From Chamaelirium japonicum (lineage: Eukaryota > Streptophyta > Magnoliopsida > Liliales > Melanthiaceae), in contig CANTAL010000003.1 of NCBI GenBank assembly GCA_947650365.1, forward strand, positions 1,488,001-1,552,000: a stretch of DNA of 64,000 nucleotides, in the 5' to 3' direction. Under the pieces are notes generated by a model. That model was given only the letters and a program-made list of their open reading frames with translations, did not search any database and was not told the DNA's origin. Positions 1-64,000 of the stretch are shown here, piece after piece. The translations under genes were made by a program, and so were the position numbers. Every line of letters begins with the position of its first letter. Position 1 is the first letter of the stretch.

Positions 1-905
1 GGATCGTACGAATGAATTAGAATGGATATATTTATGCGAATGAATTAGAATGGATCATGCGAATGAATTAGAATGAATCATACGAATAAATTAGAATGGT
101 TACATTCGTGCGAATGAATTCGAATGGATCGTACGAATGTATTAGAATGGATCGTACGAATGGATTAGAATGGATTGTACGAATGAATTAGAATGGATCG
201 TACAAATAAATTAGAAAGGTTACATTTATGAGAATGAATTATAATGGATCGTACGAATGAATTAGAATGGATCGTACGAATGGATTAGAATGGATCGGAT
301 CGTGCGAATGAATTAGAATGGATCGTACGAATGGATTAGAATAGATCATACAAATGTAACCATTCTAATTCATTCGTACGATCCATTCTAATTCATTCGT
401 ATGATCCATTCTAATTCATTCCTACGATCTATTCTAATTCATTCGCTCGAATGTATCCATTCTAATTCATTCGTACGATCCATTCTAATTCGTTCGTACG
501 ATCCATTCTAATTCGTTCGTACGATCTATTCTAATTCATTCGTACGATCCATTCTAATTTATTTGTACGATCCATTCTAATTCATTCTTACGATCTATTC
601 TAATTCATTCGTACGATCCATTCTAATTCATTCTCACAAATGTAACCTTTCTAATTCATTTGTACGATCCATTCTAATTCATTCGCATGATCCATTCTAA
701 TTCATTCATACGATCCATTCTAATTCATTCGCACGATCCATTCTAATTTTTTCATATGATCCATTCTAATTCATTCGCACGAATGTATCCATTCTAATTC
801 TTTTGCACGATCCATTCTAATTCATTCCTATGATCCATTCTAATTCATTCCTATGATCCATTCTAATTCATTCGCTCGAATGTATCCATTCTAATTCATT
901 CGTAC
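1..905. repeat. Partial higher-order repeat copy A (plus block then minus block)
   Basis: This segment matches the segment starting at 1642 with a constant offset of 1641 bp. Both contain the same irregular joints in the same order: a GGATATATTTATGCG joint near the start, a doubled GGATCGGATCG joint (292 here, 1933 there), then the switch to minus strand through GAATGTAACC. Similarity stops near 905, where this copy flips back to plus strand and the other does not. It is therefore a truncated member of the higher-order family that also includes 1912-3785 and 3785-5640. Confidence 0.75.
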
Positions 906-1911
906 ACATTTGTGCGAATGAATTAGAATGGATCCACCGAATGAGTTAGAATGGATCATACGAATGAATTCGAATGGATCGTACGAATGAATTAGAATGG
1001 ATTGTGCGAATGAATTAGAATAGATCGTATGAATGAATTAGAATGGATCCACCGAATGAGTTAGAATGGATCAAACAAATGAATTAGAATAGATCGTACG
1101 AATGAATTACAATGGATTGTGCGAATGAATTAGAATAGATCGTATGAATGAATTAGAATGGATCGTACAAATGAATTAGAATAGCTCATACGAATGAATT
1201 AGAATGAATCGTACGAATGAATTAGAATGGTTACATTCATGCGAATGAATTAGAATAGATCATGCGAATGAATTAGAATGGATCGTACGAATGAATTAGA
1301 ATAGATCGTACGAATGAATTAGAATGGATACAGTCGATCGAATGAATTAGAATGGATCGTACGAATGAATTAGAATGGATCATACGAATGAATTAGAATG
1401 GATCGTACGAATGAATTAGAATTGGAATGGATCGTACGAATGAATTAGAATACATCATGTGAATGAATTAGAATGGATCGTACGTTTGAATTAGATTGGA
1501 TTGTGCGAATGAATTAGAATGGATACATTCGTGCGAATGAATTAGAATAGATCGTAGGAATGAATTAGAATCGATCATATGAATGAATTAGAATGGATCG
1601 TACGAATGAATTAGAATGGATACATTCTAATGGATTACAATGGATCGTACGAATGAATTAGAATGGATATATTTATGCGAATGAATTAGAATGGATCGTG
1701 CGAATAAACTAGAATGAATCGTACGAATGAATTAGAATGGTTACATTCGTGCGAATGAATTAGAATGGATCGTACGAATGGATTAGAATGGATCGTACGA
1801 ATGGATTAGAATAGATCGTACGAATGAATTAGAATGGATCGTACAAAAGAATTAGAAAGGTAACATTTGTGAGAATGAATTAGAATGGATCGTACGAATG
1901 AATTAGAATGG

Positions 1912-3785
1912 ATCGTACGAATTGATTAGAATGGATCGGATCGTGCGAATGAATTAGAATGGATCGTACGAATGGATTAGAATGGATCGTACGAATGTAA
2001 CCATTCTAATTCATTCCTACGATCCATTCTAATTCATTCGTATGAGCCATTCTAATTCATTCCTACGATCTATTCTAATTCATTCGCTCGAATGTATCCA
2101 TTCTAATTCATTCGTACGATCCATTCTAATTCGTTCATACGATCCATTCTAATTCATTCGTACGATCCATTCTAATTTATTCGTACGATCCATTCTAATT
2201 CATTCGTACGATCTTTTCTAATTCATTCGTATGATCCATTCTAATTCATTCTCACAAATGTAACCTTTCTAATTCATTTGTACGATCCATTCTAATTCAT
2301 TCGCATGATCCATTCTAATTCATTCGTACGATCCATTCTAATTCATTCGCACGATCCATTCTAATTCTTTCATATGATCCATTCTAATTTATTCGCACGA
2401 ATGTATCCATTCTAATTCATTTGCACGATCCATTCTAATTCATTCCTATGATCTATTCTAATTCATTCGTACGATCCATTCTAATTCATTCGCTCGAATG
2501 TATCCATTCTAGTTTATTCGTATGATCCATTCTAATTTATTCGTACGATCCATTCTAATTCATTCACACAAATGTAACCATTCTAATTCATTCGTACGAT
2601 CCATTCTAATTCATTCCTACGATCCATTCTAATTCATTGATCCATTCTAATTCATTCGCACGATCCATTCTAATTCTTTCGTACGATCCATTCTAATTCA
2701 TTCGCACGAATGTAACCATTCTTATTCATTCGTACGATCCATTCTAATTCATTCCTACGATCCATTCTAATTCATTCGCACGAATGTATCCATTCTAATT
2801 CATTTGTACGATCCAGTCTAATACATTCGCACGAATGTAACCATTCTAATTCATTCGTACGATCCATTCTAATTCATTCCTACGATCCATTCTAATTCAT
2901 TCGCACGAATGTATCCATTCTAATTCATTTGCATGATCCATTCTAATTCATTCCTATGATCCATTCTAATTCATTCGTACGATCCATTCTAATTCATTTG
3001 CACGATTCATTTTAATTTATTCCTATGATCCATTCTAATTCATTCGTACGATCCATTCTAATTCATTCGCACGAATGTAACCATTCTAATTCATTCGTAC
3101 GATCCATTCTAATTCATTCCTACGATCCATTCTAATTCATTCGCACGAATGTATCCATTCTAATTCATTTGCAAGATCCATTCTAATTCATTCATATGAT
3201 CCATTCTAATTCATTCGTACGATCCATTCTAATTCATTCGCTCAATGAATTAGATCGTACGAACGAATTAGAATGGATCGTACGAATGAATTAAAATGGA
3301 TACATTCGAGCGAATGAATTTGAATGGATACATTTGTGCGAATGAATTTGAATGGATCGCACGAATGAATTAGAATGGATCGTACGATGCAATCTAATTC
3401 TTTCGTACAATGCGTTCTAATCCATTCTTACGATCCATTATAATTCATTCGTACAATCTATTCTAATTCATTCGCACGAGCGAATTAGAATGGATCATAT
3501 AAATGAATTAGAAAGGTTACTTTCATGAGAATGAATTAGAATGGATCGTACGAATGAATTAGAATGGATCGTACGAATGAATTAGAATGAATCGTATGAA
3601 TGAATTAGAATTGATCGTATGAATGAATTAGAATGGATACATTCGAGCGAATGAATTAGAATGGATCGTACGAATGAATTAAAATGGATCATAGGAATGA
3701 ATTAGAATGGATCGTGCAAATGAAATAGAATGGATACATTCATGCGAATGAATTAGAATTGATCATAGGAATGAATTAGAATGGA
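1912..3785. repeat. Higher-order repeat unit B, about 1.87 kb
   Basis: This is the first of two adjacent long units in the left arm. It runs from the doubled GGATCGGATCG joint at 1933 through a long minus-strand block, a 140-bp plus segment beginning CTCAATGAATTAGATCG at 3241, a short minus segment, and a plus-strand tail. The next unit repeats this order of irregular variants almost exactly. The offset is 1873 bp at its start and 1850 bp later, consistent with the gain or loss of one 23-bp monomer. Unit edges are chosen from where similarity starts and are approximate. Confidence 0.8.
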
Positions 3786-5640
3786 TCGTACGAATGGATT
3801 AGAATGGATCGGATCGTGCGAATGAATTAGAATGGATCGTACGAATGGATTAGAATGGATCGTACGAATGTAACCATTCTAATTCATTCCTACGATCCAT
3901 TCTAATTTATTCGTATGAGCCATTCTAATTCATTCCTATGATCTATTCTAATTCATTCGCTCGAATGTATCCATTCTAATTCATTCGTACGATCCATTCT
4001 AATTCGTTCATACGATCCATTCTAATTCATTCGTACGATCCATTCTAATTTATTCGTACGATCCATTCTAATTCATTCGTACGATCTATTCTAATTCATT
4101 CGTATGATCCATTCTAATTCATTCTCACAAATGTAACCTTTCTAATTCATTTGTACGATCCATTCTAATTCATTCGCATGATCCATTCTAATTCATTCGT
4201 ACGATCCATTCTAATTCATTCATATGATCTATTCTAATTCATTCGCACGAATGTATCCATTCTAATTCATTTGCACGATCCATTCTAATTCATTCCTATG
4301 ATCCATTCTAATTCATTCGTACGATCCATTCTAATTCATTCGCTCGAATGTATCCATTCTAATTTATTCGTACGATCCATTCTAATTTATTCGTACGATC
4401 CATTCTAATTCATTCGCACGAATGTAACCATTCTAATTCATTCGTACGATCCATTCTAATTCATTCCTACGATCCATTCTAATTCATTGATCCATTCTAA
4501 TTCATTAGCACGATCCATTCTAATTCTTTCGTACGATCCATTCTAATTCATTCGCACGAATGTAACCATTCTAATTCATTCGTACGATCCATTCTAATTC
4601 ATTCCTACGATCCATTCTAATTCATTCGCACGAATGTATCCATTCTAATTCATTTGTACGATCCAGTCTAATACATTCGGACGAATGTAACCATTCTAAT
4701 TCATTCGTACGATCCATTCTAATTCATTCCTACGATCCATTCTAATTCATTCGCACGAATGTATCCATTCTAATTCATTTGCACGATCCATTCTAATTCA
4801 TTCCTATGATCCATTCTAATTCATTCATACGATCCATTCTAATTCATTTGCACGATGCATTTTAATTCATTCCTATGATCCATTCTAATTCATTCGTACG
4901 ATCCATTCTAATTCATTCGCACGAATGTAACCATTCTAATTCATTCGTACGATCCATTCTAATTCATTTCTACGATCCATTCTAATTCATTCGCACGAAT
5001 GTATCCATTCTAATTCATTTGCAAGATCTATTCTAATTCATTCATATGATCCATTCTAATTCATTCGTACGATCCATTCTAATTCATTCGCTCAATGAAT
5101 TAGATCGTACGAACGAATTAGAATGGATCGTACGAATGAATTAAAATGGATACATTCGAGCGAATGAATTTGAATGGATACATTTGTGCGAATGAATTTG
5201 AATGGATCGCACGAATGAATTAGAATGGATCGTACGATGCAATCTAATTCTTTCGTACAATGCGTTCTAATCCATTCTTACGATCCATTATAATTCATTC
5301 GTACAATCTATTCTAATTCATTCGCACGAGCGAATTAGAATGGATCATACAAATGAATTAGAAAGGTTACTTTCGTGAGAATGAATTAGAATGGATCGTA
5401 CGAATGAATTAGAATGGATCGTATGAATGAATTAGAATTGATCGTATGAATGAATTATAATGGATACATTCGAGCGAATGAATTAGAATGGATCGTACGA
5501 ATGAATTAGAATGGATCATAGGAATGAATTAGAATGGATCGTGCGAATGAATTAGAATGGATTGTACGAATGAATTAGAATGGATACATTCGTACGAATG
5601 AATTAGAATAGATCGTAGGAATGAATTAGAATGGATCATA
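3785..5640. repeat. Higher-order repeat unit C, about 1.85 kb
   Basis: This is the second tandem copy of the unit before it. The marker GGATCGGATCG is at 3806 and CTCAATGAATTAGATCG at 5091. Variant order is conserved across two internal strand switches, with differences of only a few per cent by eye. A duplication this long and similar implies recent unequal exchange or a similar copying event rather than monomer-by-monomer growth. Confidence 0.8.
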
Positions 5641-6121
5641 CGAATGAATTAGAATGGATCGTGCGAATGAATTAGAATGGATTGTACGAATGAATTAGAA
5701 TGGATCGTGCGAATGAATTAGAATGGATCGTGCGAATGAATTAGAATGGATCGTACGAATGAATTAGAATGGTTCGTACGAACGAATTAGAATGGATCAT
5801 ACGAATGAATTAGAATGGATCGTACGAAAGAATTAGAATGGATATATTCGAGCGAATGAATTAGAATGGATCATATGAATGAATTATAATGGATCATAGG
5901 AATGAATTAGAATGGATCGTGCGAATGAATTAGAATGGATCGTGTGAATGAATTAGAATAGATCATACGAATGAATTAGAATGGATCGTGCGAATGAATT
6001 AGAATGGATCGTGCGAATGAATTAGAATGGATCGTGCGAATGAATTAGAATGGATTATACGAATGAATTAGAATGGATCGTTCGAACGAATTAGAATGGA
6101 TCGTATGAACGAATTAGAATG

Positions 6122-6126
6122 GATCG
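6122..6126. repeat. Target-site duplication, left copy (GATCG)
   Basis: The five bases GATCG sit directly before the TGTT that opens the 5' LTR and recur directly after the AACA that closes the 3' LTR (19251-19255). Five bases is the usual Ty3/gypsy integrase footprint. GATCG is part of the satellite monomer, so the element landed inside one repeat unit. Removing the element and one GATCG leaves a continuous satellite unit. Confidence 0.93.
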
Positions 6127-6379
6127 TGTTGGGGGTAGACAGAAACCACATATCTTGGGTAGCATTGCAAACGCATCTGAGATAAGAGTTCTCGAGGGAG
6201 CCCGTCCAAAAAGCTCGCCCTCCCAGCCCATCAGGAGCTCGCCCCCCCCACAGGGAGCTGGATGGACACCTTGTATCTGAGTGCAGCTCGCAGGAGTTCG
6301 CTCCCCCGTGCTCACCAAATCACCTTGACAGGGAGCGAGATCCACATTAGGCTGAAAGGGGCCAGGCCAAGAGCACTCT

Positions 6380-6700
6380 TAAGAGCTCACCTGAGCTCGA
6401 TGGAGCTTGCCTGAGATCGCCCAGAAGCTCGCTCAGGAGCTCGCCTGAGCTCGATGGAGCTCGCCCGAGATCGCCCAGAAGCTCGCTCAGGAGCTCGCCC
6501 CGTAGCTCGCCAAGCTCACCCAGGAGCTCGCCTAAGCTCGCTCAGGAGCTCGTCCCGGAGTTCGCCAAGCCCGCGCGAGAACTCGCTGGCAGTGATAGCG
6601 GGAGTTAGACCGTCATGCATAACGAAGACACCGGCATCGCGAACGCCCCTAGCTCGCGCAGGAGCTCGCCCCTAGCTCGCTCAGGAGCTCGCCCAAGCTC
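6380..6700 (+). repeat. GAGCTCGCC-rich low-complexity segment in the 5' LTR
   Basis: About 320 bp made largely of variants of AGGAGCTCGCC, CTGAGCTCGATGG and AGAAGCTCGCTC, repeated irregularly with spacings of about 10 to 40 bp. The palindrome GAGCTC recurs many times. The same segment is in the 3' LTR near 18308-18628, and scattered AGCTCGC words also occur at 13.4 kb and 17.2-17.9 kb of the element. It may be an expanded regulatory or packaging motif or simply slippage. The sequence alone does not decide. Confidence 0.7.
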
Positions 6701-7086
6701 GCCAGAATTCCCCAGTTTATCGAGGAGGTTGCTCCCGCGAGGCCCGACTCTTGATAGATGTGGAAGAGAAGGCGGAGCAATGGAGGGCGAGCTCACCTTA
6801 GCTCCCCGTCGGAGGTCGCCCATAATGTATGAGAGGATACCAGGTGTCAAAACCCCACGGAAGCTACGTGGACAAACGTGGTCCACGGAAGCTCGCTCGA
6901 ATCAGTTCGAGACCTCCCAGACTTGAACATTCCAGAATGGCCACCTGGCCACGACAAGAAAGATTCCCTCCCCCACTCAAACCGCCTGGCAGGCCTGACG
7001 ACAGAATGTCAGGGCGCGAGTACCAAGGACTGTCAGACCCACGCGAGCCAGAACGTGGGGGGTCTAGAAGGCGCCGGAAGAATCTC

Positions 7087-7124
7087 CACGTGTCGGGCCA
7101 CGGTAGGCCGCCGATTGCTATAAA
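7087..7124 (+). promoter_or_regulatory. Predicted LTR core promoter: G-box and TATA box
   Basis: A G-box (CACGTG) lies at 7087-7092 and a TATA box (TATAAA in GCTATAAATGCTC) at 7119-7124, so transcription would be expected to begin about 30 bp downstream, near 7150. The R region would start there. The same pair is in the 3' LTR at 19015-19020 and 19047-19052. In plants the G-box binds bZIP and bHLH factors in light, abscisic-acid and stress responses. Its role here is inference. Confidence 0.65.
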
Positions 7125-7324
7125 TGCTCACCCCCAGGCTCCATAGTACAGGTTCGAAATCCCTTTTCCTTCCTCTTTGGTCCATTACAGCTCGCCGTTG
7201 TGCCACTGTGACTGACTTGAGCGTCGGAGGGTCTGCGCTCCTAAGGGAGCCAGCCGTTCTCACGTTCTCTTTTCTTTGTCTTGCAGGCAGCCCGCACGGA
7301 CCAGCGAAAAATCCCCCGAACATT

Positions 7325-7342
7325 TGGCGCCGTCTGTGGGAT
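7325..7342 (+). other. Primer-binding site for minus-strand DNA synthesis
   Basis: TGGCGCCGTCTGTGGG lies two bases after the 5' LTR, the normal place for a tRNA primer site. The first nine bases, TGGCGCCGT, are complementary to the 3' end of plant tRNA-Asp (…GGCGCCA). The following bases match less well, so the tRNA assignment is tentative. The rest of 7323-7412 is untranslated leader up to the gag ATG. Confidence 0.75.
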
Positions 7343-7412
7343 CTTCGACTGGTTCCTGCGAGAACGCCCACGACCACGCGGTTGAGCGCAGTTCGCTCTC
7401 GTAACCTCAAGG

Positions 7413-9917
7413 ATGGCTCCGGCGACAAGGGAACGCAGGCGACCGAGGACTCGTGCCAGATCTGCGCGCAGCGAGCCTCCGGTCGAGACCCCTCAGCCCC
7501 AGGTCCCGCTCAGCGACCAACTCTTATTGGAGATGTTGGCCACCCAGCGGGCGATGATGGAGGAGCTGACACGATTGCGTCAGGCTCCGGCGGCCAGCCG
7601 ACGATCTGGGCCGATGAAGACGGCGTCTCCGGTGCGACCACCGGCGTCAACATCGCGACCGCCCACGGTCGCTCCGGTGCGGCAGGTTTCCCAACCGGAA
7701 CCCCCAGTCGGGAGAGCGGCTGTACGCGGGGTGCCGGAAACCCCGCTCACAAGGTTGCAGAAGCTAGTCACCCAGCGATCTAGCAACCAGGCGACCTCGC
7801 GCGCGACCATTCCCTGCCGCCGTAGCCGGAGCGCCGATTCTGAGGGGTCGGAGGCAAGATCTCTAGAGCGGGATCGCGACCCACGCCATCGGCGACGAGG
7901 GAAAGAGCCCGCGGTAGAAATATCTTCAGGAGCTCGAGAGGCAACGGCCTCCCACAGACCAACTGACGCGCCGAAGGAATCCGTGGGTGGACAGCAAGGA
8001 GCCCGCCGAGCGGTTGCCCCCGAGGGTCGCCGCGGGGTGGGGCCGACCTCGCCACAAGGGAGCGTACGAGACCGCCTAGGACCTGCGCAGCCACCTCTGG
8101 GAGTTCTCCCCGGGCGCTGGCGGCGACCTAGTACGCCAGTAGATTTACTTGAAGACCTTGCCGCCCACGGAGGTAGCTCGCCTTTCACCAGCGAGGTCCA
8201 CCAAGGGGGTTTTCCGCACCACTGGACCCCCCCGAAGTTTGTATTGTTCGACGGGTCGCAGGATCCCGTTGACCATCTCTTGGCTTACAGAAAGCTTCTG
8301 TTTTTCCGGGACCAAGACCACGTCTTGTGCCGAGCATTCCCGAGCAGTTTGACCGGCTCGGCATTGAACTGGTTCCACAAGTTGCCGCCCGGCACGATCC
8401 CCGACTTTCCAACTCTCTCTAGGCTATTCCTGGAGCAGTATCGCTGCAATAGGCAGCCCCCGAAGAGAATCGAGTCTCTGTTTACTTTAACCATGGGAGC
8501 TCGCGAGACGCTCCGGTGCTTCGCAACGCGATTCCGGAGCGCCTACCTCGCTCTGGAAGACGCGGCGGGCCAAGATCGTACCGTGGTGAGCGCTTTCAGA
8601 AGCGCCCTCCCCGAGGGTTGCAAGCTTCATGACGCTCTAGTGATCAAGGACCCTCGCACGATGGTTGAACTATTTGCCCTGGTCCAGCAACACATCAAGC
8701 TCGAAGACGCTGTGCTAGACCGAAAGGGAAAGGCAGCCGAGCAGCGACCTCCTCCGGCCCCGCGACCGCTCGTCGTCAAGGCCGTAGAGAGAAGGGAGGT
8801 GCCCCTGGCGGTGGCTTTGCCTGGACCGCCCGCTGTTCCTGCTGAACAGCCCGCTGAAGCCCCCACGGCTGTCGCTGGAAGACCGGCGAACTGGCGCCTG
8901 CCTCCAGGACCCGGGGAGCGGGATTTCACCGTGCTGACCCACTCGCCAGGACAAATCTTCCATCAGATTCGGAATGAACCTTTCTTCCAGTACCCGCCAC
9001 CCCTACAGGTCGGAGAGCCTGGCTCTACCGACAACTCGCGGCGGTGCGCCTTTCATCGAAGCCCTGGGCATCACACTAACAGATGCCGGGCTCTCAAGAA
9101 CCACCTCGAGGATTTGGTCACCCAGGGCCACTTGAATCAGTTTATTTCGCCTCCAAGGAGGTTCGAGGTAGTACCGACACGGGCCCCTCGGGAGGGAGAT
9201 CGCCCGGGGCCCGCTGAGCCCGCCCTGCCTCCGCCTCCCGCGGAAGGACCGGCGATCTGCCATACCATTAGCGGGCGGCTGTGCGGCCCGAGATCCAGTA
9301 ATGAAGCCCGCCGACGAGTCAGGGAGATGGAGCGGGCACAAAAGGTATTTTCCGTCTCGCTAACTCCTACTTTACTTCAAGCACCAAGGGTGGAAGCCCG
9401 CGATTTTCTCTGGTTTTCGGAAGATGACATGACTGGGGTCGTTACGCCCCACAATGACCCCCTCGTCATACGCCTGATGATGGCTAACATCGAGGTGAGG
9501 CGAGCTCTGGTTGATCCGGGGAGCGCCGTGGACATCCTTTTTCTGTCGGCCTACCTGCGAATGGGGTTGAGACTCGCCGACCTGTCTCCCTCGACGAGCT
9601 CCCTCAGTGGGTTCACCGGAGAGGTCGCCAGAGTGGCAGGGGAGATAACCCTTACGGTGACCGCTGGCCCGGAGGCTCGCCAAGTCCGCTTCGCGGTAGT
9701 GGATGGAAGTTCCGCATTTAACGCCATCCTTGGGCGGCCTTGGCTAAGGCAAATGAATGCGGTAGCTTCACCCAACCATCAGGCCCTCAAATTCCCAACC
9801 GCGAGCGGGGTCGTAGTAATTCGGGGTGATCAGGTAGCCTCTACCCGATGCGAGCAGGATGTCCTTCACCTCAGGGACATGGAGGTCGCCGAGGCCAAGA
9901 GGCCCGCACCCTCCTAG
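7413..9917 (+). CDS. gag-pro: Gag-protease polyprotein of the Tat retrotransposon
   Basis: An 834-residue ORF whose ATG lies in good context (AAGGATGGCT), 90 bp after the LTR. The first 250 or so residues are basic, Arg/Pro-rich and probably disordered. Residues about 255-440 match the plant retrotransposon gag (capsid) domain, including the DPVDHLLAYR, LNWFHKLP and FLEQYR-type landmarks. A zinc knuckle of the Tat type follows, with C545, H548, H553 and C558 (C-X2-H-X4-H-X4-C). An aspartic-protease-like segment near residue 700 reads LVDPGSAVDIL, followed by a conserved ILGRPWL element. The capsid would form the virus-like particle and the protease would process the polyprotein. The ORF ends at a UAG in the same frame as pol and looks whole. 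Confidence 0.92.
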   Translation: MAPATRERRRPRTRARSARSEPPVETPQPQVPLSDQLLLEMLATQRAMMEELTRLRQAPAASRRSGPMKTASPVRPPASTSRPPTVAPVRQVSQPEPPVGRAAVRGVPETPLTRLQKLVTQRSSNQATSRATIPCRRSRSADSEGSEARSLERDRDPRHRRRGKEPAVEISSGAREATASHRPTDAPKESVGGQQGARRAVAPEGRRGVGPTSPQGSVRDRLGPAQPPLGVLPGRWRRPSTPVDLLEDLAAHGGSSPFTSEVHQGGFPHHWTPPKFVLFDGSQDPVDHLLAYRKLLFFRDQDHVLCRAFPSSLTGSALNWFHKLPPGTIPDFPTLSRLFLEQYRCNRQPPKRIESLFTLTMGARETLRCFATRFRSAYLALEDAAGQDRTVVSAFRSALPEGCKLHDALVIKDPRTMVELFALVQQHIKLEDAVLDRKGKAAEQRPPPAPRPLVVKAVERREVPLAVALPGPPAVPAEQPAEAPTAVAGRPANWRLPPGPGERDFTVLTHSPGQIFHQIRNEPFFQYPPPLQVGEPGSTDNSRRCAFHRSPGHHTNRCRALKNHLEDLVTQGHLNQFISPPRRFEVVPTRAPREGDRPGPAEPALPPPPAEGPAICHTISGRLCGPRSSNEARRRVREMERAQKVFSVSLTPTLLQAPRVEARDFLWFSEDDMTGVVTPHNDPLVIRLMMANIEVRRALVDPGSAVDILFLSAYLRMGLRLADLSPSTSSLSGFTGEVARVAGEITLTVTAGPEARQVRFAVVDGSSAFNAILGRPWLRQMNAVASPNHQALKFPTASGVVVIRGDQVASTRCEQDVLHLRDMEVAEAKRPAPS

Positions 9918-9923
9918 CAATTA
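9915..9923 (+). promoter_or_regulatory. Probable gag-pol read-through signal (UAG CAA UUA)
   Basis: The gag-protease frame ends in UAG followed at once by CAA UUA, and pol continues in the same frame. UAG-CAA-UUA is the tobacco mosaic virus leaky-stop context (consensus stop plus CARYYA). In-frame stop suppression is an established recoding route for making a small amount of a longer product. Here it would set the Gag to Gag-Pol ratio. The match is seen directly; its efficiency in this element is inference. Confidence 0.75.
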
Positions 9924-12900
9924 CCGCCCGCTACGAGCGAGCTATTGGGGAGCCCGCTGGAGGCCTCCTCGCTTAAGTCCCCTACTCCACCCCCGGGTGG
10001 GAGCGGTGTGGACCTTAAGTTGGAGGAGGGAGGTCGCCCGACAACCCCCAAGAGAGGAAGTTTTCCAATTGCCGAACCACTTCAAGAGATCGACATTGGC
10101 GGCAAGGAAGGGCCAAGAGTTGTTAGCCTCGGGACCTCGCTAACCAAGGGCGAGGTCCTGGCCATAACCAACTTGCTCAGGGAATACCGTGACGTATTCG
10201 CCTGGAGCTTCGCGGACATGCCAGGGATTGACCCGGAGGTCGCCTGTCATCGTCTGCACACCATGAAGGAGTTCCCGCCGGTCAAGCAGAAAGCTCGGCA
10301 CATACCTGCTGCAAAGTCCATTGCAGTGGCGGCAGAGATAGACAAGCTGGAGCGAGCCGGCTTCATCCGCGAGGCGCACTTCCCCGAGTGGATCTCCAAT
10401 ATCGTGGCGGTGCCAAAGAAGAGCGGAGCGGTCAGGGTGTGCATCGACTTCTCCGACCTCAACAAGGCATGCCCGAAGGATGGATTTCCTCTTCCGAGAA
10501 TAGGCGCACTGGTCGACGCAGCTGTCGGGTTCCAGGCCCTGTCCTTCATGGATGGATATTCTGGGTATAACCAGATACCTCTCCACGCCGACGATCAGGA
10601 GAAGACCGCCTTCTACTCCGGAGCGGGCTACCAGAAGTTGTACTGCTATCGAGTGATGCCGTTCGGACTTAAGAACGCTGGAGCGACCTACCAAAGGCTA
10701 GTCACTCAGATGTTCAAAGATCAGATCGGCAGAAACGTCGAAGTTTATGTAGACGACCTCCTGGTGAAGAGTCGGGAGAGGGAGGGGCATGTTGCCGATC
10801 TCCGCGAAACCTTCGAGGTACTGAGAAAGTACCAAATGAGGCTAAACCCGGCGAAGTGCGCATTCGGGGTGACGTCGGGGAAATTCCTCGGGTACCTGGT
10901 CACCCACAGGGGGATCGAGGCCGACCCTGGGCAAATCCGAGCACTTGTCGAGATGCCCGCGCCGAGGACCCGGCAGGAAGTCCAGAGGTTGAGCGGGCGA
11001 ATCGCCGCGCTCAATCGGTTCATCTCCAAATCCTCAGACAACTGCCGACCTCTTTTCGAGCTGCTACGAAAAGGAGCAAGCATTTGTTGGAATGAGAAGT
11101 GCGAGCACGCCTTCCAAAAGATCAAGGACTACCTGGCGAGCCCACCGATCTTAGCGGCACCCAAAGAGGGCGCCGAACTCGGCGTGTACCTTGCGGTCAC
11201 TGAGAATGCGGTGAGCGGGGTCCTGGTTGTGGAAGAAGCAAAGGTGGAGCGGCCTGTCTACTTTGTAAGCCACACGATGCTTCCCGCCGAGCTCCGGTAT
11301 CGACTAATCGAGAAGGTCGCATTGGCCTTGGTCCTTACCGTGAGAAAGCTCCACCCCTACTTCTCGGCTCACCCTGTCAGGGTCATCACAGAGCACCCTC
11401 TAAAGAGCGCGCTCTCCAGGCCCTCAGTAGCCGGCAGGCTCTACCGTTGGTCCGCCGAGCTCGCCGCCTATGGCTTGGAGTATGTCCCTCGAGTTGCGGT
11501 CAAAGGACAGGCGCTCGCCGATTTCTTGGCGGACTTCCCCATAGAAGAACCGGTCCAGTACCGGGAGGATGAGCCAACTGAGGCACACCCTGGGAAGGCG
11601 AGGTTCTTGGACAATCAAGGCGAGCATCCTCCAACTAAGCGTTCAGAGGAGGCAGGCTGGGAATTATTCGTCGATGGATCCTCCAACGCTTTGGGGGCGG
11701 GGATCGGGGTCGCACTGATCGCCCAGTCGGTACTTCTGGAGAAGTCAGTCCGACTGGATTTCGCCGCTACCAACAATGAGGCGGAATATGAGGCGCTGCT
11801 GGCCGGCCTAGAGCTCGCCAAAGAGGTAGGCGCCGAACGCCTGAAGGTCTTTAGCGATTCCCAGCTAATTGTTTGCCAAGTCAATGGGGAGTACGCCTCT
11901 CGGGACGCACGAATGGCGGGCTACGTGGATCTGGTGAAGCACAAGGCCGCGGAGTTCGAAAAGATCTCCTTCGAGCAAATTCCGCGAGCCGATAATAGGC
12001 GAGCTGATGCTTTGGCAAACGCCGCCTCTTTGCTGGGAACATCAGAGGCTCGCCAGATTCTCATCGAAGTCCAAAATCAGTCTCGGCTCCAACTGATGGA
12101 GCCCGCTGTTAACCAAGTCTCCGCAAACGTACCACTCAGCGGGTGGACCGCCCCCATTTTTCGCTTTCTCCAGAAGGGCGAGCTACCAGAGGATAGAGAG
12201 GAAGCCCGGCGAGTGGAGAAATGCGCTGGGCGCTATCTCATTCGCTGGGATCGCCTTTTTCGAAGATCCTTTGGCGGGCCAAGTCTCCGTTGCGTCGAGA
12301 GCCCGGAAACCGAAGAAGTTCTAAAGTGCATTCACTCTGGCGAGCTGGGAAACCACGCTGGTGGGCGGTCTCTTGCTGCGAAAGTACGAAGGCAAGGATA
12401 CTGGTGGCCCACTCTGGAGCAAGACGCTTTGAGGGTCGCCCAGAGGTGCATCCAGTGCCAGAAGCACGCCACCACGAACCATATGCCCGCAGAAGAACTG
12501 CATCCTCTGGCGAGCCCCTGGCCTTTCCAGCAATGGGGGTTGGATATTGTGGGACCTTTCCCTGTGTCAGCCCGATAAAAGAAATTCATCCTAGTAGCTA
12601 CGGACTACTTCACCAAATGGGTGGAAGCGGTCCCGCTAGCTAAGATAGGCGAGAAGCAAGTCAAGGACTTCCTTTGGAAGAATATCTTCTGCCGCTTTGG
12701 GCTGCCACGAGTGCTGATCACCGACAATGGTCGCCAGTTCGACAATCGCTTGATCAGAAGCTTTTGTGTTGAATATGGGGTCGACCTAAGGTTCTCATCC
12801 CCGAGGTACCCTCAAAGCAACGGGCAGGCCGAAGCGACGAATCGCGTGATCTTGGACAACCTCAAGAAGAGGCTGGAAGGGAAAAAAGGATTGTGGGAGC

Positions 12901-13379
12901 AGGAGCTCGATGGAGTCTTGTGGGCCTATCGCACTACTCCATGTCGCTCAACTAACGAATCCCCTTTCAGTCTCACTTTTGGTTGCAAAGCCGTGCTACC
13001 CATAGAGGCCGAGCTGCCCACTGAAAGAAGGTTTGCGTCGGCGGAGGTCGACAACGACAAACTGCTAGTCGACTCCCTTGATCAACTCGAAGAAAGACGA
13101 GAGCGCGCCAATCTACACCTCGCCGGATACCGACAAGAGATGAAGCGCGCCTATGATAAAAGAGTCCGCCATCGGGCATTCAAAGCCGGGGACATGGTGA
13201 TGAGAAAGGTGTTCGCAAATACCCAAGAGCCTAATGCAGGAAAGCTCGCGGCGAATTGGGAAGGCCCCTACATAATACGCGAAGCGCGAGGCCAGGGGGC
13301 TTACCAGTTGATGACCGCTGAAGGCGACCTGTTAGAGCGGCCTTGGAATGCTTTACACCTTCGCAAGTTCTATGCCTAA
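9918..13379 (+). pseudogene. pol: Pol region: reverse transcriptase, two RNases H, integrase; looks broken about once
   Basis: Reverse transcriptase spans roughly 10340-10880, with FSDLNKACPKD, MDGYSGYNQI, MPFGLKNAGATYQR and the catalytic YVDD at 10746-10757. The RT-linked RNase H follows at about 11145-11540 and ends in ALADFLADFP. A second, separate RNase H lies at about 11655-12040 with its acidic set in FVDGSS, NNEAEYEALLAGL, FSDSQL and NRRADALA; this double RNase H is a Tat-lineage hallmark. Integrase has an HHCC zinc-finger segment (about 12330-12470, CIQCQKH) and a catalytic core with LDIVGPF, TDNG and GQAEATNR in DD35E spacing. A C-terminal part with NWEGPYII and LRKFYA ends the region. 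Pol would copy the RNA and insert the cDNA. It appears to carry about one break, so this copy is probably not autonomous. Confidence 0.9.
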
Positions 13380-15053: not shown

Positions 15054-15092
15054 AAGGAAGGTGAAAGAGTTAGCAAAAATTGAGACTAAGAT

Positions 15093-18051: not shown

Positions 18052-18054
18052 TAA

Positions 18055-50110: not shown

Positions 50111-53100
50111 TCCATTTTAATTCATTCGTACGATCCATTCTAATTTATTCGCACGAATATATCCATTCTAATTCATTCGTTCGATCCATTCTAATTCATT
50201 CGTACGATCCGTTCAAATTAATTCGCATGATCCATTCTAATTCATTCGTACGATCCATTCTAATTCATTCTCACGAATGTAACCTTTCTAATTCATTTGT
50301 ATGATCCATTCTAATTCATTCGTACGATCCATTCTAATCCATTCGTACGATCCATTCTGATCCATTCGTATGATCCATTCTAATTCATTCCTATAATCCA
50401 TTCTAATTCATTCGCACGAATGTATCCATTCTAATTCATTTGCATGATCCATTCTAATTCATTCCTATGATCCATTCTAATTCATTCGTACGATGCAATC
50501 TAATTCATTCGCACAAATGTATCTATTCTAATTCATTCGTACAAATGTATCCATTCTAATTCATTCATATGATCCATTCTAATTCATACGTACGATCCAT
50601 TCTAATTCATTTGTACGAATGTATCCATTCTAATTCATTCGCACGATCCATTCAAATTCATTCACACGATCCGTTCTAATTCTTTCGCACGATCCATTCC
50701 AATTCATTCGTATGATCCATTCTAATTCATTCGTACGATCCATTCTAATTCATTTGCATGAATGGATCCATTCTAATCCATTTGTACGATCCATTCTAAT
50801 TCATTCGTACGATCAATTCTAATTCATTCGCACGATCCATTCAAATTCATTCGTACGATCCATTCTAATTCATTCGTACAATACGTTCGTACGATCCATT
50901 CTAATGCATTCATTCGTACGAATGAATTAGAATGGTTACATTCGTGCGAATGAATTAGAATGGATCGTACGAATGAATTAAAATGGATATATTCGTACGA
51001 ATGAATTAGAACGGATCGTGCGAATGAATTAGAATGGATCGTACAAATGAATTAGAAAGGTTACATTTGTGAGAATGAATTAGATTGGATCATACGAATG
51101 AATTAGAATAGACCGTACGAATGAATTAGAATGGATCGTACGAAAAATTAGAATGGATCGTACGAATGAATTAGAATGGATCGTACGAATGAATTAGAAT
51201 GGATACATTCAAGCGAATAAATTAGAATAGATCGTAGGAATGAATTAGAATGGATCATACGAATGAATTAGAATGGATCGTGCGAATGAATTAGAATGGA
51301 TTGTACGAATGAATTAGAATTGATAAATTCGTGCGAATGAATTAGAAAGGATCGGACGAATGAATTAGAATGGATCATACGATTCATTCTAATTCATTCG
51401 TACGATCCATTCTAATGCATTCGTACGATTCATTCTAATTCATTCGCACGATCCATTCTAATTCATTCGTACGATCCATTCTAATTCATTCGCACGATCC
51501 ATTCTAATTCATTCGTACGATCCATTCTAATTCATTCGTATGATCCATTCTAACTCATTCCTACGATCTATTCTTATTCATTTGCTCAAATGTATCCATT
51601 CTAATTCATTCGTACGATCCATTCTAATTCGTTCATACGATCCATTCTAATTCATTCTCATGAATGTAACCTTTCTAATTCATTTGTATGATCCATTCTA
51701 ATTCATTCGTATGATCTATTCTAATTCATTCGAACGAATCCATTCTAATTCATTCGCACAATCCATTCTAATTCATTCGTACGATCCATTCTAATTCATT
51801 CGTATGATCCATTCTAACTCATTCGGTGGATCCATTCTAATTCATTCGTACGATCCATTCTAATTCATTCGCACGATCCATTCTAACTCATTCGTACGAT
51901 CCATTCTTATTCATTTGTACGATCCATTCTAATTTATTTGCACGAATATACGATCCATTCTAATTCATTCGCACGATCCATTCTAATTCATTCGTACGAT
52001 CCATTCTTATTAATTCATACGAACCATTCTAATTCATTCTGCACAATCCATTCTAATTCATTCGTACGATCCATTCTAATTCATTCGTATGATCCATTCT
52101 AACTCATTCGCTCGAATGTATCCATTCTAATTCATTCGTACGATCCATTCTAATTCATTCGCATGATCCATTCTAACTCATTCGGTGGATCCATTCTAAT
52201 TCATTCGTACGATCCAATCTAGTTCATTCGCTCGAATGTATCCATTCTAATTCATTCGTTCGATCCATTCTAATTCATTCGTACGATCCATTCTAATTCA
52301 TTCGCAGGAATGTAACCATTCTAATTCATTCGTACGATCCATTCTAATTCATTCGCACGATCCATTCTAATTCATTCACACAAATGTATCCATTCTAATT
52401 CATTCGTTCGATCTATTCTAATTCATTCGCATAAATATATCCATTCTAATTCATTCGCATAAATATATCCATTCTAATTTATTCGTACAATCCATTCTAA
52501 TTCATTCGCATGATCCATTCTAATTCATTTGTACGATCCATTCTAATTCATTTGTATAATCCATTCTAATTCTTTCATATGATCCATTCTAATTCATTCG
52601 CACGAATGTATCCATTCTACTTCATCCGTACAATCCATTCTAATTCATTCGCACGATCCATTCTAATTCATTCGTACGATCCATTCTAATTCATTCGCAC
52701 GAATGTAACCATTCTAATTCATTCGTACGATCTATTCTAATTCATTCCTACGATCTATTCTAATTCATTCGCACGAATGTATCTAATTCATTTGCACGAT
52801 CTATTCTAATTCATTCCTATGATCCATTCTAATTTATTCGTACGATCCATTCTAATTCATTCGCTCGAATGTATCCATTCTAATTCATTCGTACGATCCA
52901 TTCTAATTCATTTCTAATTCATTCGTACGATCCATTCTAATTCATTCGTACGATCCATTGTAATTCATTCATACAATCCATTCGGATTCATTCGCACAAA
53001 TGTATCCATTCAAATTCATTCGTATGATCCATTCTAATTAATTCGTACGATCCATTCTAATTCATTCTCACGAATGTAACCTTTCTAATTCATTCGTACG

Positions 53101-56100
53101 ATCCATTCTAATTCATTCGCACGATCTATACATTCATACGACTGAATTAGAATGGATCGTGCGAATTAATTTGAATGGATCGTACGAATGAATTTGAATG
53201 GATACATTTGTGCGAATGAATCTGAATGGATTATATGAATGAATTACAATGGATCGTACGAATGGATTAGAATGGATCGTACGAATGAATTACAATGGAT
53301 CATACAAATGAATTAGAAAGGTTACATTCATGAGAATGAATTAGAATGGATCATACGAATGAATTAGAATGGATCATGCGAATGAATTTGAATGGATCGT
53401 ACGAATGAAATAGAATGGATCGAACGAATGAATTAGAATGGATACATTCGAGCGTATGAATTAGAATAGATCGTAGGAATGAATTAGAATGGATCATACG
53501 TACGAATGAATAAGAATAGATTGTATGAATGAATTAGAATGGATACATTCTTGCGAATGAATTAGAATGGATCGTACGAATGAATTAGAACAAATCTTAC
53601 GAATGAATTAGAATGGATCGTACGAATGAATTAGAATGGATACATTTGTACGAATAAATTAGAATGGATTGTACGAATGAATTAGAATGGATACATTCTT
53701 ACGAATAAATTAGAATGGATCGTATATTTGTGCAAATGAATTAGAATGGATCATACGAATGAATTAGAATGCATCATGCGAATGAATTAGAATGAATCGT
53801 ACGAATGCATTAGAATGGATCGTACGAATGAATTAGAATGAATCGTACGATCCATTCTAATTCATTCGTCCGATCCATTCTAATTCATTCGCACGAATGT
53901 ATCCATTCTAATTCATTCGTACAATCCATTCTAATTCATTCGCACGATCCATTCTAATTCCTTCGTATGATCCATTCTAATTCATTCCTACGATCTATTC
54001 TAATTCATTCGCTTGAATGTATCCATTCTAATTCATTCGTTCGATCCATTCTAATTCATTCGTACGATCCATTCAAATTCATTCGCATGATTCATTCTAA
54101 TTCATTCGTACGATCCATTCTAATTAATTCTCACGAATGTAACTGTTCTAATTCATTTGTATGATCCATTCTAATTTATTCGTACGATCCATTCTAATCC
54201 ATTCGTACGATCCATTCTAATCCATTCATACGATCCATTCTAATCCATTCTTACGATCCATTCTAATTCATTATCACAAAGGTAACCTTTCTAATTCATT
54301 TGTACGATCCATTCTAATCCATTCGTACGATCAATTCTAATCCATTCGTACGATCCATTCTAATTCATTCGCACGAATGTAACCATTCTAATTCATTCGT
54401 ACGATCCTTTTTAATTCCTTCCTACGATCCATTCTAATTCATTCGCACGAATGTATCCATTCTAATTCATTTGCACGATCCATTATAATTCATTCCTATG
54501 ATCCATTCTAATCCATTTATACGATACATTCTAATTCATTCGCATGATCCATTCTAATTCAATCGTATGATCCATTCTAATTCATTCGCACAAATGTATC
54601 CATTTTAATTCATTCGTACGATCCATTCTAATTTATTCATACGATCCATTCTAATTCATTCGCACGATCCATTCTAATTCATTTGTACGATCCATTCTAA
54701 TTCATTCGCACGATCCATTCTAATTCATTTGTACGATCCATTCTAATTCATTCGCATGAATATATCTATTCTAATTCATTCGTATGATCCATTCTAATTT
54801 ATTCGCACGATCTATTCTAATTCATTCGTACGATCCATTCTAATTCATTCGTACGATCCATTCTAATTCATTCGCACGAATATATCATACGAATGAATTA
54901 GAATGGATCATGCGAATGAATTAAAATGGATCGTACAAATGAATTCGAATGGATCGTGCGAATGAATTAGAATGGATCGTACGAACGAATTAGAATGGAT
55001 CGTACGAACGAATTAAAATGGATCGTATGAACGAATTAGAATGGATCGTACGAATGAATTAGAATGGAGCATAGGAATGAATTAGAATGGATCGTGCAAA
55101 TGAATTAGAATGGATACATTCGTGCGAATGAATTAGAATGGATCGTAGGAATAAATTAGAATGGATCGTACGAATGAATTAGAATGGTTACATTCGTGCG
55201 AATGAATTAGAATGGATCGTACGAATGGATTAGAATTGATTGTACGAATGGATTATAATGGATCGTACGAATGAATTAGAATGGATCGTACAAATAAATT
55301 AGAAAGGTTACATTTGTGAGAATGAATTAGAATGGATCGTACGAATGAATTAGAATGGATCGTACGAATGGATTTGAATGGATCGTACGAATAGATTAGA
55401 ATGGATTAGAATGGATCATACGAATGAATTAGAACGGATCATACAAATGAATTAGAAAGGTTACATTCATGAGAATGAACTAGAATGGATCGTACGAATG
55501 AATTAGAATGGATCATGCGAATGAATTTGAATGGATCGTACAAATGAATAAGAATGGATCGTACGAATGAATTAGAATGGATCGTACGAATGTATCCATT
55601 CCAATTCATTCGTACGATCCATTCTAATTCGTTCATATGATCCATTCTAATTTGTTCGTACGTTCCATTCTAATTCATTCGCACGATCTATTCTAATTCA
55701 TTCGCACGATCCATTCTAATTCTTTCATATGATCCATTCTAATTTATTCGCACGAATGTATCCATTCTAGTTCATTCGTACGCTCCATTCTAATTCATTC
55801 GTACGCTCCATTCTTATTCATCGCACAAATGTATCCATTTTAATTCATTCGTACGATCTATTCTAATTCATTCGCACGATCGATTCTAATTCATTCGTAT
55901 GATCCATTCTAATTCATTCGTACGATCCATTCTAATTCTTTCGTACGATCTATTCTAATTCATTTGCACGATCTATTCTAATTCATTCGTACAATCCATT
56001 CTAATTTATTTGTACGATCCATTGTAATTTATTCGCACTATCCATTCTAATTCATTCGTATGATCCATTCTAATTCATTCTTACGATCCATTCTAATTCA

Positions 56101-61600: not shown

Positions 61601-62845
61601 CGAATGAATTAGAATAGATCGTAGGAATGAATTAGAATGGATCGTACAAATGAATTAGAAAGGTTACATTTGTGCGAATGAATTAGAATGGATCGTATGA
61701 ATGAATAAGAATGGATCGTACGAATTAATTAGAATGGATCGTGCGACTGCATTAGAATGAATCGTACAAATGCATTAGAATGGATCGTACGAATGAATTA
61801 GAATTGATACATTCGTGCGAATGAATTAGAATGGATCGTACGAATGAATTAGAATTGATACATTCGTGCGAATGAATTAGAATGGATCGTAGGAATGAAT
61901 AAGAATGGATCGTACGAAGGAATTAGAATGGTTACATTTGTGCGAATGAATTAGAATGGATCGTACGAATGGTTTAGAATGGATCGTATGAATGGATTAG
62001 AATGGATCGTTCGAATGAATTAGAATGGATCGTATAAATGAATTAGAAAGGTTACATTTGTGAGAATGAATTAGATTGGATCGTACGAACGAATTTGAAT
62101 GGATCGTATGAACGAATTAGAATGGATCGTACGAACGAATTAGAATGGATCGTACGAATGAATTAGAATGGATCATATGAATGAATTAGAATGGTTACAT
62201 TCGTGCGAATGAATTAGAATGGATCGTACGAATGGATTAGAATGGATCGTGCGAATGTATTAGAACGCATTGTACGAATGAGTTAGAATAGAAACATTTG
62301 TACGAATGAATTAGAATGGATCGTACGAATGAATTAGAATAGATCATACGAATGAATTAGAATGGATCGAACGAATGAATTAGAATGGATACATTCGAGC
62401 GAATGAATGAGAATAGATCGTAGGAATGAATAAGAATGGATCATACGAATGAATTAGAATGGATCGTGCGAATGAATTAGAATGGATTGTACGAATGAAT
62501 TAGAATGGATACATTCGAGCGAATGAATTAGAATGGATCGTACGAATGAATTAGAATGGATCATAGGAATGAATTAGAATGGATCGTACGAATGGATTAG
62601 AACCATTGTACGAATGAATTAGAATTGATCGTACAAATGATTTAGAATGGATACATTCGTGCGAATGAATTAGAATGGATCGTACGAATGAATTAGAATG
62701 GATCGTGCGAATGAATTAGAATGGATAGTGCGAATGAATTAGAAGGGATCGTACGAATGAATTAGAATAGATCCATCGAATGAGTTAGAATGGATCATAC
62801 GAATGAATTAGAATGGATCGTACGAACGAATTAGAATGAATCGTA
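58650..62845 (+). repeat. Long plus-strand satellite block (4.2 kb)
   Basis: About 180 monomers in one orientation, entered at GTACGATACATTTGTGCGAATG near 58650 and left at the palindromic AATCGTACGATCC joint near 62845. A recurring GATTAGAACGCATTGTACG variant (about 59285, 60105, 61455 and 62265) hints at a further higher-order period, irregularly spaced at 0.8-1.35 kb. Nothing but satellite is present. Confidence 0.88.
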
Positions 62846-64000
62846 CGATCCTTTCTAATTCATTCATCCGATCCATTCTAATTTATTCGCACGAATGTAT
62901 CCATTCTAATTCATTCGTACAATCCATTCTAATTCATATGCACGATCCATTCTAATTCATTCATATGATCCATTCTAATTCATTCCTACGATCTATTCTA
63001 GTTCATTCCCTCGAATGTATCCATTCTAATTCATTCGTTCGATCCATTCTAATCCATTTGTACGATCCATTCTAATTCATTCCTATGATCCATTCTAATT
63101 CATTCGTACGATCCATTCTAATTTATTCGCTCGAATGTATCCATTCTAATTCATTCGTACGATCCATTCTAATTCATTCGTACGATCCATTCAAATCCAT
63201 TCGTACGATCCATTCTAATTCATTCGTACAATACGTTCTAATCCATTCGTACGATCCATTCTAATCCATTCGTACGATCCATTCTAATTCATTCGAACGA
63301 ATGTAACCATTCTAATTTATTCGTACGATCCATTCTAATTCATTCCTACGATCCATTCTAATTCATTCGCACGAATGTATCCATTCTAATTCATTTACAC
63401 GATCCATTCTAATTCATTCCTATGATCCATTCTAATTTATTCGTACGATCTATTCTAATTCATTCGCACGAATGTAACCATTCTAATTCATTCGTATGAT
63501 CCATTATATTTCATTCCTACGATCCATTCTAATTCATTCGCACGAATGTATCCATTCTAATTCATTTGCACGATCCATTATAATTCATTCCTATGATCCA
63601 TACTAATTCATTCGTACAATCCATTCTAATTCATTCGCTCGAATGTATCCATTCTAATTCATTCGTACGATCCATTCTAATCCATTCGTACGATCCATTC
63701 TAATTCATTCGTACGATCCATTTTAATCCATTCGTACGATCCATTCTAATTCATTCCAATGATCCATTCTAATTCATTCGCACGAATGTATCCATTCTAA
63801 TTCATTTGCACGATCCATTCTAATTCATTCCTATGATCCATTCTAATTCATTCGTATGATCCATTCTAATTCATTCGCTCGAATGTATCCATTCTAATTC
63901 TTTCGTACGATCCATTCTAATTTATTCGTGCAAATAAATTAGAATGGATCTTACAAATGAATTAGAATGGATCGTGCGAATCAATTAGAATGGATCATAC

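Follow-up and report, generated by a model that had tools for sequence, protein, structure and literature searches.

The window analysed here, 64,000 bp of the forward strand of Chamaelirium japonicum contig C15, consists of a satellite array and a retrotransposon lying within it. The satellite occupies positions 1 to 6126 (identified by TRF, a strand parser and the chain of mirrored matches that places it in the left arm of a mirror described below) and positions 19251 to 64000 (TRF and parser), and it alternates in strand in both parts. It is almost certainly the Chio1/Chio2 (23/28-bp) holocentromere satellite of Chionographis japonica. CENH3 enrichment of this satellite (PMC10264360) and mixed forward and reverse arrays of alternating orientation (Kuo et al. 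2023, PMC10264360; Kuo et al. 2025, PMC12722358) are already published. A satellite had initially been read over the whole of positions 1 to 64000, which holds for most of the window and fails at 6127 to 19250, where a Ty3/gypsy-type LTR retrotransposon lies on the plus strand. This element was recognized by its LTRs (1,196 bp, 99.33% identical), its flanks (a 5-bp target duplication, GATCG) and its Pfam domains (gag, RT, RNase H and integrase).

TRF periods in the window are 23 and 23n+28, and 264 kb of C15 contain 1,939 inserts of 28 bp versus 9,914 monomers counted. As read from the sequence, the 28-bp variant is the 23-bp unit with the insert ACATT and an A to G substitution. The minus-strand unit, CATTCGTACGATC, contains TTCGTACGA, the 9 bp published for Chio, and every unit includes a self-complementary dyad of 8 bp, TCGTACGA, which is the sole long homology between the two strands of the unit.

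To follow strand along the array, we used a Viterbi parser built of two strands by a 28-state ring, which covers both the 23- and the 28-bp units. Within the window it placed 64 switches, split evenly into 32 from plus to minus and 32 from minus to plus, and the count stayed at 64 to 66 across switch penalties of −8 to −20. Window blocks range from 22 bp to 4,867 bp. The sequence-only reading, which had proposed more than 60 strand changes and blocks from under 100 bp to nearly 5 kb, was thus accurate on both counts. A wider sample, comprising 264 kb of C15 and six 10-kb loci, yielded 308 joints, with a median interior block of 542 bp. The six loci are a nonrandom set chosen around BLAST hits of window pieces, four of them via a uniform plus-block query, and in two of the six the parser found no switch.

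Both strands' GTAC dyads coincide at 40 of the 64 window joints (25/32 and 15/32 in the two classes), and the other 24 lie outside this register. Among joins made at random between plus and minus pieces, 5.9% (n=1,500) and 5.0% (n=1,500) fell in GTAC register, which bears out the earlier suggestion that switches often sit at palindromic GTAC joints. All five plus-to-minus joints quoted in support of that suggestion are in register: AATCGTACGATT at 20242 to 20253 (switch parsed at 20241), GGATCGTACGATCC at 22071 to 22084 (22073) and again at 31560 to 31573 (31562), GGATCGTACGATTC at 43968 to 43981 (43970) and GAATCGTACGATCC at 53840 to 53853 (53840). The quoted minus-to-plus joints fared less uniformly, the dyads coinciding at 28922, at 36429 (CATTCGTACAAAT, 36430 to 36442) and at 37864, and not near 50920, where the joint with CATTCGTACGAATG (50911 to 50924) was parsed at 50910, 4 bp out of register.

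The preference extends to the wider sample, in which GTAC register was found at 163 of the 308 joints; the remaining 145 share 0 to 5 bp of homology. An exact palindrome of at least 10 bp lies within 8 bp of 78 of the 279 C15 joints, compared with 1.0% of positions drawn at random along the array and 8.5% of random joins, a simpler test that agrees with the register counts and with the palindrome preference anticipated for these switches. Homology of at least 6 bp occurs at 41% and 19% of joints in the two classes versus 1% of random joins, and the 92 joints concerned (63 and 29) all have GTAC register. Joints are thus located in a self-complementary site much more often than chance joining would place them, which makes template switching, or annealing at inverted microhomology, a reasonable mechanism. 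Template switching was one of the two mechanisms put forward from the letters alone; as to the other, cutting at GTAC is not required, since homology alone yields the same register, the random joins sharing at least 6 bp having registered at GTAC as well (7/7 and 11/11).

The 64 window switches are not 64 independent events. When related joints were collapsed (90% over 200 bp), GTAC register was found in 57 of 124 clusters, a clustering that took in 307 of the 308 joints, one being too close to a locus end. Under the most lenient merging (85% over 60 bp, same register) the figure was 18 of 71. Single-linkage cluster counts depend on the threshold, with 13 clusters (7 in register) at 0.80, 22 (12) at 0.82 and 197 (110 in GTAC register) at 0.95. 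Further, the 401 bp at 20000 to 20400, around the first of the joints above, recur at 95 to 96% identity on contigs C170, C127, C325, C95 and C154 and at 89 to 94% on others. Joints recur in both orientations, in the clusters of the C15 sample as well as among the joints listed from contig C1, where one convergent interior makes up 21 of 100, in forward orientation in 12 cases and in reverse in 9. Many joints are therefore copies of fewer ancestral ones.

Across the genome, exact 22-bp perfect palindromes (convergent/divergent) number 5,655/4,823 at GTAC, 2,056/4,339 at GATC and 73/2,333 at AATT. Five 400-bp loci were sampled for such palindromes; four have a switch at the palindrome, and the fifth, a convergent AATT, was parsed as an unbroken minus array. 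The joint counts behind the C1 listing were 44,649 convergent and 81,028 divergent, with some double counting by gap range. Among the C1 joints listed, 100 places each in C1:1.365-2.351 Mb and C1:1.365-1.856 Mb, GTAC register accounts for 23 of the 100 plus-to-minus joints and for 5 of the 96 in the minus-to-plus class. GTAC as a universal connector of the genome is rejected by this different mix on C1 and by the genome-wide GATC and AATT palindromes, and its minority share in the listed C1 stretch indicates that founder effects matter.

Our main new result is that the window contains the centre of an inverted duplication, about 260 kb across, with arms about 95% identical where they match. 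The left arm covers positions 1 to 28477 and continues leftwards for about 100 kb beyond the window; the right arm covers 32318 to 64000 and extends about 98 kb to the right. Both arms are defined by an inverted collinear chain and by mirrored switches. Between the halves of the 264 kb, this chain comprises 70.6 kb in 153 HSPs at 95.2% identity, each arm amounting to about 115 kb once retrotransposon sequence is set aside; HSPs below 93% were left out, so the arm identity of 95% is biased upward. The corresponding chains reached 32.3 ± 3.6 kb (maximum 42.4 kb) in 300 shuffles and 24.6 kb in direct orientation. An inverted partner (at least 90% identical) was present at the expected mirrored place for 52 of the 145 left-arm switches, with 46 distinct partners and a longest series in mirrored order of 46, compared with 0 to 3 in ten shifted controls; five left-arm switches have a direct-orientation copy at the expected place instead. 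Non-satellite stretches longer than 100 bp number only two in the 264 kb and are not at mirrored places, the retrotransposon being found in the left arm only.

The arms are separated by a core of about 3.84 kb (28478 to 32317) in which the main mirror register gives no long match, as delimited by the innermost long HSP, which pairs window positions 28041 to 28477 with 32318 to 32754 (128041 to 128477 with 132318 to 132754 in local coordinates of the 264 kb). Inside the core, shorter matches of 132 to 202 bp occur at other offsets. From the parser and the innermost HSP, the left core edge is placed 11 bp away from the switch of a near-palindromic plus-to-minus joint, GGATACATTCGCTCGAATGTATCC (28474 to 28497); the core edges may have been shifted by later duplication or turnover, or the core itself made by it. 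The mirror search covered one contig, C15. A query taken from C15 at 950 kb (568 kb off centre) and at 600 kb (918 kb off centre) gave no partner near the mirrored places among 40 scored candidates. A mirror running through the whole contig is thus not borne out, and the arms may end about 130 to 568 kb from the centre.

Based on the joints and the mirror together, we propose, with a probability of about 0.65, that small joints arise by annealing or switching at the dyad, that blocks are then copied by duplication, and that the mirror of about 260 kb formed as a fold-back or U-turn. In a rare repair or replication event, an array strand would anneal to, or switch onto, an oppositely oriented dyad. 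A new joint would often fall at the dyad because this is the only long stretch common to both strands, and GATC and AATT, which are shorter cores, could serve as alternative joint sites. Joints would then spread through duplication of blocks of kilobases and up, direct as well as inverted. The largest such duplication would be the inverted one of about 260 kb, whose core of about 3.8 kb in the window has the form expected of a fold-back or U-turn; the switches shared by its arms would be older than the mirror.

A local fold-back at every small joint was also considered and rejected, as neither arm resemblance nor abutting inverted copies give a trace of it. In a comparison of arms at 40 to 300 bp, taking one joint per cluster with both blocks long enough, the arms of small joints were no more alike than the arms of other joints at 80 to 300 bp, and the small excess at 40 bp only is the dyad neighbourhood itself. 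Inverted copies abutting joints (within 5 to 30 kb) were above random in 3 of 18 settings, all of them plus-to-minus. The picture of single bricks of about 19 bp flipping between symmetric connectors, offered by the sequence-only reading, had to be abandoned. Only 12 of 300 interior blocks in the wider sample are 25 bp or shorter, and GTAC register at the two ends of a block is independent (both ends GTAC in 76 of the 276 C15 blocks whose two joints were parsed, versus 77 expected, 147 × 145/276), so the ends do not look like the product of one flip.

This independence of block ends also suits a different origin, in which eccDNA circles or other fragments are inserted at breaks in random orientation and the joints reflect microhomology end joining. 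Among the routes proposed for the spread of Chio are interlocus gene conversion, inversions and eccDNA reintegration (Kuo et al. 2023, PMC10264360), and orientation is balanced genome-wide, one unswitched 22-mer occurring 1,110,171 times forward and 1,122,085 times in reverse. Such insertion, however, gives no reason to expect collinear arms mirrored over about 260 kb, in which 46 joints are repeated in mirrored order, and we consider it unlikely as the main source of the pattern, while giving it some weight.

Selection could in principle retain the joints and the mirror, if hairpin dyads or macro-palindromes serve as a centromere mark. Hairpins between adjacent Chio monomers are predicted for the 8-bp dyad (PMC10264360), the 9 bp TTCGTACGA are common to the otherwise different Chama satellite of a sister genus (PMC12722358), and the conserved inversion sites of Tribolium are read as possibly functional (PMC13081366). 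However, the Chama arrays are consistently oriented despite the same 9 bp (PMC12722358), and two Chio loci lack a switch across 10 kb, which leaves this explanation improbable. Site-specific cutting at CGTACG with rejoining, so that single bricks are flipped, would agree with GTAC being the most frequent register among the joints of the C15 sample, but it is at odds with the rarity of single-unit flips, the uncorrelated block ends and the thousands of exact palindromes at GATC or AATT instead, and we regard it as very improbable. Least credible are false joins or chimeric reads: satellite arrays are difficult to assemble, but the assembly is HiFi and typical HiFi reads are longer than the median interior block, the surroundings of one joint were found again on many contigs, and the arms, about 5% apart in sequence and with different retrotransposon insertions, do not look like one read doubled back on itself.

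The preferred reading, dyad-guided joints spread by duplication and fold-back, suggests how centromere DNA may grow. More tentatively, and with considerable doubt, we speculate that holocentricity licenses palindromic growth of centromeres, whereas monocentric chromosomes purge the dicentric and acentric products; with 7 to 11 centromere units per chromosome, products of exchange would survive. If so, the self-complementary dyad would let any two array copies pair in inverted orientation, fold-back or U-turn duplication would be a normal route by which centromere units grow and spread, and strand alternation would be left at all scales, the smallest being tens of bases and the largest about 260 kb. 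Consistently oriented Chama arrays with the same dyad would then suggest purging in monocentric chromosomes. Dyad joints and the mirror thus pose a testable question, namely, whether centromere satellites can tolerate inverted exchange only if the load is spread over many centromere units.

Among known systems, Chio as published (PMC10264360, PMC12722358) matches the window in its 23- and 28-bp units, TTCGTACGA and mixed orientation. The view that this alternation is unusual for plant satellites is a fair one, but it had already been published for C. japonica (PMC10264360, PMC12722358). Our literature search recognized no account of joint positions in Chio; in the part of the Chio papers' text covered, there are no switch positions, joint families or mirror of about 260 kb as found here. 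The 60-bp Chama satellite of Chamaelirium luteum, in a sister genus, shares the 9 bp and a centromeric role, but, unlike Chio, has a consistent orientation and belongs to monocentric chromosomes (PMC12722358). FabTR-10 of the pea metapolycentromere (PMC10027222) occurs in both orientations among arrays, one pair stemming from duplication and inversion, but, unlike in Chio, orientation within each array is uniform, with one exception. Human fold-back inverted duplications, as given in Hermetz et al. 2014 (PMC3907307), have spacers of 766 to 70,466 bp (median 3,428) and 2 to 8 bp of microhomology; our mirror may resemble them in having a short, possibly unduplicated spacer and perhaps a joint at short inverted microhomology beside it. 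They involve mostly single-copy DNA, large CNVs and a dicentric intermediate, whereas the mirror lies inside a centromeric satellite and its spacer edges are less certain. The nearest precedent of the mirror is the macro-dyad symmetry of Tribolium (T. madens TmSat1/TmSat2), documented only in that genus according to PMC13081366, which describes orientation changes at recurrent conserved inversion sites and array-level palindromes. The C15 array shows the same two features in the assembly, inverted halves at array level and recurrent inversion sites. The Tribolium cases are from a beetle, with mostly two subarrays, a longest annotated case of 75 kb and long-stem inversion sites (PMC13081366), whereas here, in a plant, a mirror of about 260 kb encloses hundreds of blocks, whose joints frequently lie at 8-bp dyads. 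Array-level palindromes are thereby extended from flour beetles to a plant, at more than three times the longest reported there.

Outside positions 6127-19250, the window is built from copies of a 23-bp unit, GAATGAATTAGAATGGATCGTAC, and of a 28-bp variant, and by sequence it is an already known satellite: given the unit sizes and the common TTCGTACGA, these units most probably correspond to Chio1 and Chio2 of the holocentric Chionographis japonica. The sequence-only reading had extended the satellite over 1-64000, which holds except at 6127-19250, where a Ty3/gypsy-type LTR retrotransposon with gag, RT, and RNase H domains and an integrase resides. The window covers positions 1,488,001-1,552,000 of its source contig (C15), which is 3.25 Mb long in an assembly of 1,518,659,071 bases in 3,253 contigs. 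Across the whole genome, an unswitched Chio1 22-mer has 1,110,171 forward and 1,122,085 reverse occurrences, an almost exact balance of orientation. With ACATT added to Chio1, the 28-bp variant contains a complete CATTCGTGCGAATG (for example, at window 21578-21591) and thereby forms a miniature minus-to-plus joint within a uniform block; Chio2 may be the scar of a tiny fold-back.

A Viterbi parser placed 64 strand switches (joints) in the window, and 64 to 66 when the switch penalty was varied, in line with the more than 60 first noticed. The suggestion that switches favor GTAC palindromes was also borne out: at 40 of the 64 joints (25/32 plus-to-minus, or convergent; 15/32 minus-to-plus, or divergent) the GTAC dyad of one strand falls on that of the other, a register found in only 5.9% and 5.0%, respectively, of random joins (1,500 of each kind). 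A larger sample took in 264 kb of C15 together with six loci of 10 kb each (contigs C1, C4, C7, C8, C11, and C12), the latter picked around BLAST matches of window pieces rather than at random. Among its 308 switches, 163 were in the GTAC register (101/153 convergent and 62/155 divergent). Switch density in C15 was about 1.2 per kb, and two of the six loci (C8:59766001-59776000 and C1:114785001-114795000, 10 kb of Chio each) had zero switches, although both were selected with a uniform query and are therefore an unfair sample for switch density. When related joints were collapsed, 57/124 clusters were in the GTAC register; a lenient collapse (85% over 60 bp), which preferentially fuses GTAC joints, left 18/71.

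Sequence of at least 6 bp common to both strands was present at 41% of convergent and 19% of divergent joints, compared with 1% of random joins. All 92 joints with such homology were in the GTAC register, as were all random joins with it (7/7 and 11/11), and the remaining 145 joints had 0 to 5 bp of homology. Hence, the dyad, an 8-bp self-complementary stretch of the unit, is the sole long homology that both strands offer. Site-specific cutting, as in the candidate mechanism of cutting at palindromes followed by rejoining, is not needed for the GTAC register, since random joins with at least 6 bp of homology also fall there. The self-complementary cores read in the unit are GTAC, GATC, and AATT; the available text of a 2023 study counts Chio dyads without giving their letters (Kuo et al., PMC10264360). 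Exact genome-wide counts of six perfect 22-bp palindromes gave 5,655 convergent and 4,823 divergent for GTAC, 2,056 and 4,339 for GATC, and 73 and 2,333 for AATT. Four of five 400-bp loci at such palindromes contained the switch (two divergent GATC, one convergent GATC, and one divergent AATT), and the fifth, at a convergent AATT palindrome, was parsed as an unbroken minus array with no switch. Zero-spacer palindromes at other unit phases were rare (at most 7 per phase at two mismatches in 324 kb sampled).

Many of these switches are inherited copies, as joints recur with the same interiors and copied surroundings and C15 carries direct copies (1.3 to 3.8 kb, 95 to 99% identity, spacing mostly 1.6 to 12 kb). 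Anchored joint patterns occur at 44,649 convergent and 81,028 divergent places genome-wide, counts that include some double counts. Among the first 100 convergent places, all inside C1:1.365-2.351 Mb, one interior accounted for 21 (12 forward and 9 reverse), and 47 interiors were distinct with reverse complements merged; among the 96 divergent C1 places listed, one interior accounted for 32, and 34 were distinct. The GTAC register was found at 23/100 and 5/96 of these places, respectively, and the leading registers were unlike those in C15; local register seems to be set by founder joints. The 401 bp around window 20241 have 95 to 96% identical copies on C170, C127, C325, C95, and C154 and 89 to 94% copies elsewhere, including on chromosome scaffolds. 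The same three-joint run occurs at window 3244-3481 and 5094-5331, and its 1,850-bp spacing is matched by a 1,326-bp direct match (97.7% identity). An ordered set of three convergent joints at C1:1856518-1861484 appears again about 452 kb away at C1:2308982-2313912, which suggests that a further array contains a direct duplication of large size.

Self-comparison of the 264-kb C15 stretch (inverted matches of at least 500 bp) revealed a large mirror, with 55.0 of 75.2 kb of inverted matches centered at local 120-140 kb and a chief center at local 130.3-131 kb (window 30.3-31 kb). Side registers lie near local 122.8, 128, and 132-138 kb; in our reading the first fits the 13.1-kb retrotransposon of the left arm, and some of the rest may derive from later duplications. 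Each arm has about 115 kb of sequence outside the retrotransposons, of which the best inverted chain covers 70,581 bp (153 HSPs, 95.2%), against a mean of 32,252 (sd, 3,563; maximum, 42,353) in 300 nulls with the right half shuffled and flipped in 5-kb pieces; the direct chain is 24,636 bp. An inverted partner (at least 90%, no more than 1.5 kb from the mirrored position) was found for 52/145 left-arm switches, compared with 0 to 3 in each of ten shifted controls; these have 46 distinct partners, 46 are in strict mirrored order, and 45/52 keep the same register. Five further left-arm switches have a directly oriented copy instead. The two halves of the innermost long match of the main register enclose a core (about 3.84 kb, window 28478-32317) whose interior has matches of 132 to 202 bp at other offsets; 11 bp separate its left edge from the nearby switch at 28488. 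Because the chain fills almost the entire stretch (local 0.2 to 261.7 kb), the true ends of the mirror may lie beyond it; a query taken from 568 and 918 kb off center had no mirror partner among 40 scored candidates.

The retrotransposons bear on the age of the mirror. The window element has 99.33% identical LTRs and a GATCG target duplication and contains 7.1 copies of a 78-bp tandem repeat (window 13493-14046); its 465-aa antisense frame (window 15714-17111) had no Pfam match. The right arm carries another LTR element (C15:1613161-1626898), with LTR pieces of 96.7% identity, and the two positions are not mirrored. Such unlike insertions would speak against a folded read or simple misjoin. 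As the arms differ by about 5% in matched parts (a lower bound, given the 93% HSP cutoff), the mirror would predate both insertions if rates are alike, and the shared switches would be older still.

By analogy, the form of the mirror, with a kilobase-scale core and joints at short inverted homology, appears to be that of human fold-back duplications, for which the passages available report spacers of 766 to 70,466 bp (median, 3,428) and microhomology of 2 to 8 bp (PMC3907307). A self-complementary 8-mer in every unit would supply fold-back homology everywhere in the satellite. The many small blocks gave no clear sign of fold-back: arms were unmirrored at 80 to 300 bp, inverted copies adjoining joints exceeded random places in only 3/18 settings, and a block's two ends were independent in register. 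These blocks may be old and shuffled or may stem from joining of another kind at the dyad, among them the insertion of excised fragments.

Strand alternation itself is known, as the "frequently alternating orientation" of Chio, in contrast to the sister genus, which is monocentric and has Chama arrays of consistent orientation, is already in print (Kuo et al. 2025, PMC12722358). Joint positions, joint copying, and the large mirror had no description for Chio in the literature passages available. Those from the Luzula sylvatica paper (PMC11538461) contain none on array orientation, and those on the pea metapolycentromere describe arrays that, with a single exception, are each uniform in orientation (PMC10027222). 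In the passages available, the architecture comes closest to the macro-dyad symmetry of Tribolium satellites, whose arrays reach up to 75 kb and have recurrent inversion sites; such symmetry is said there to be documented in Tribolium only (PMC13081366).
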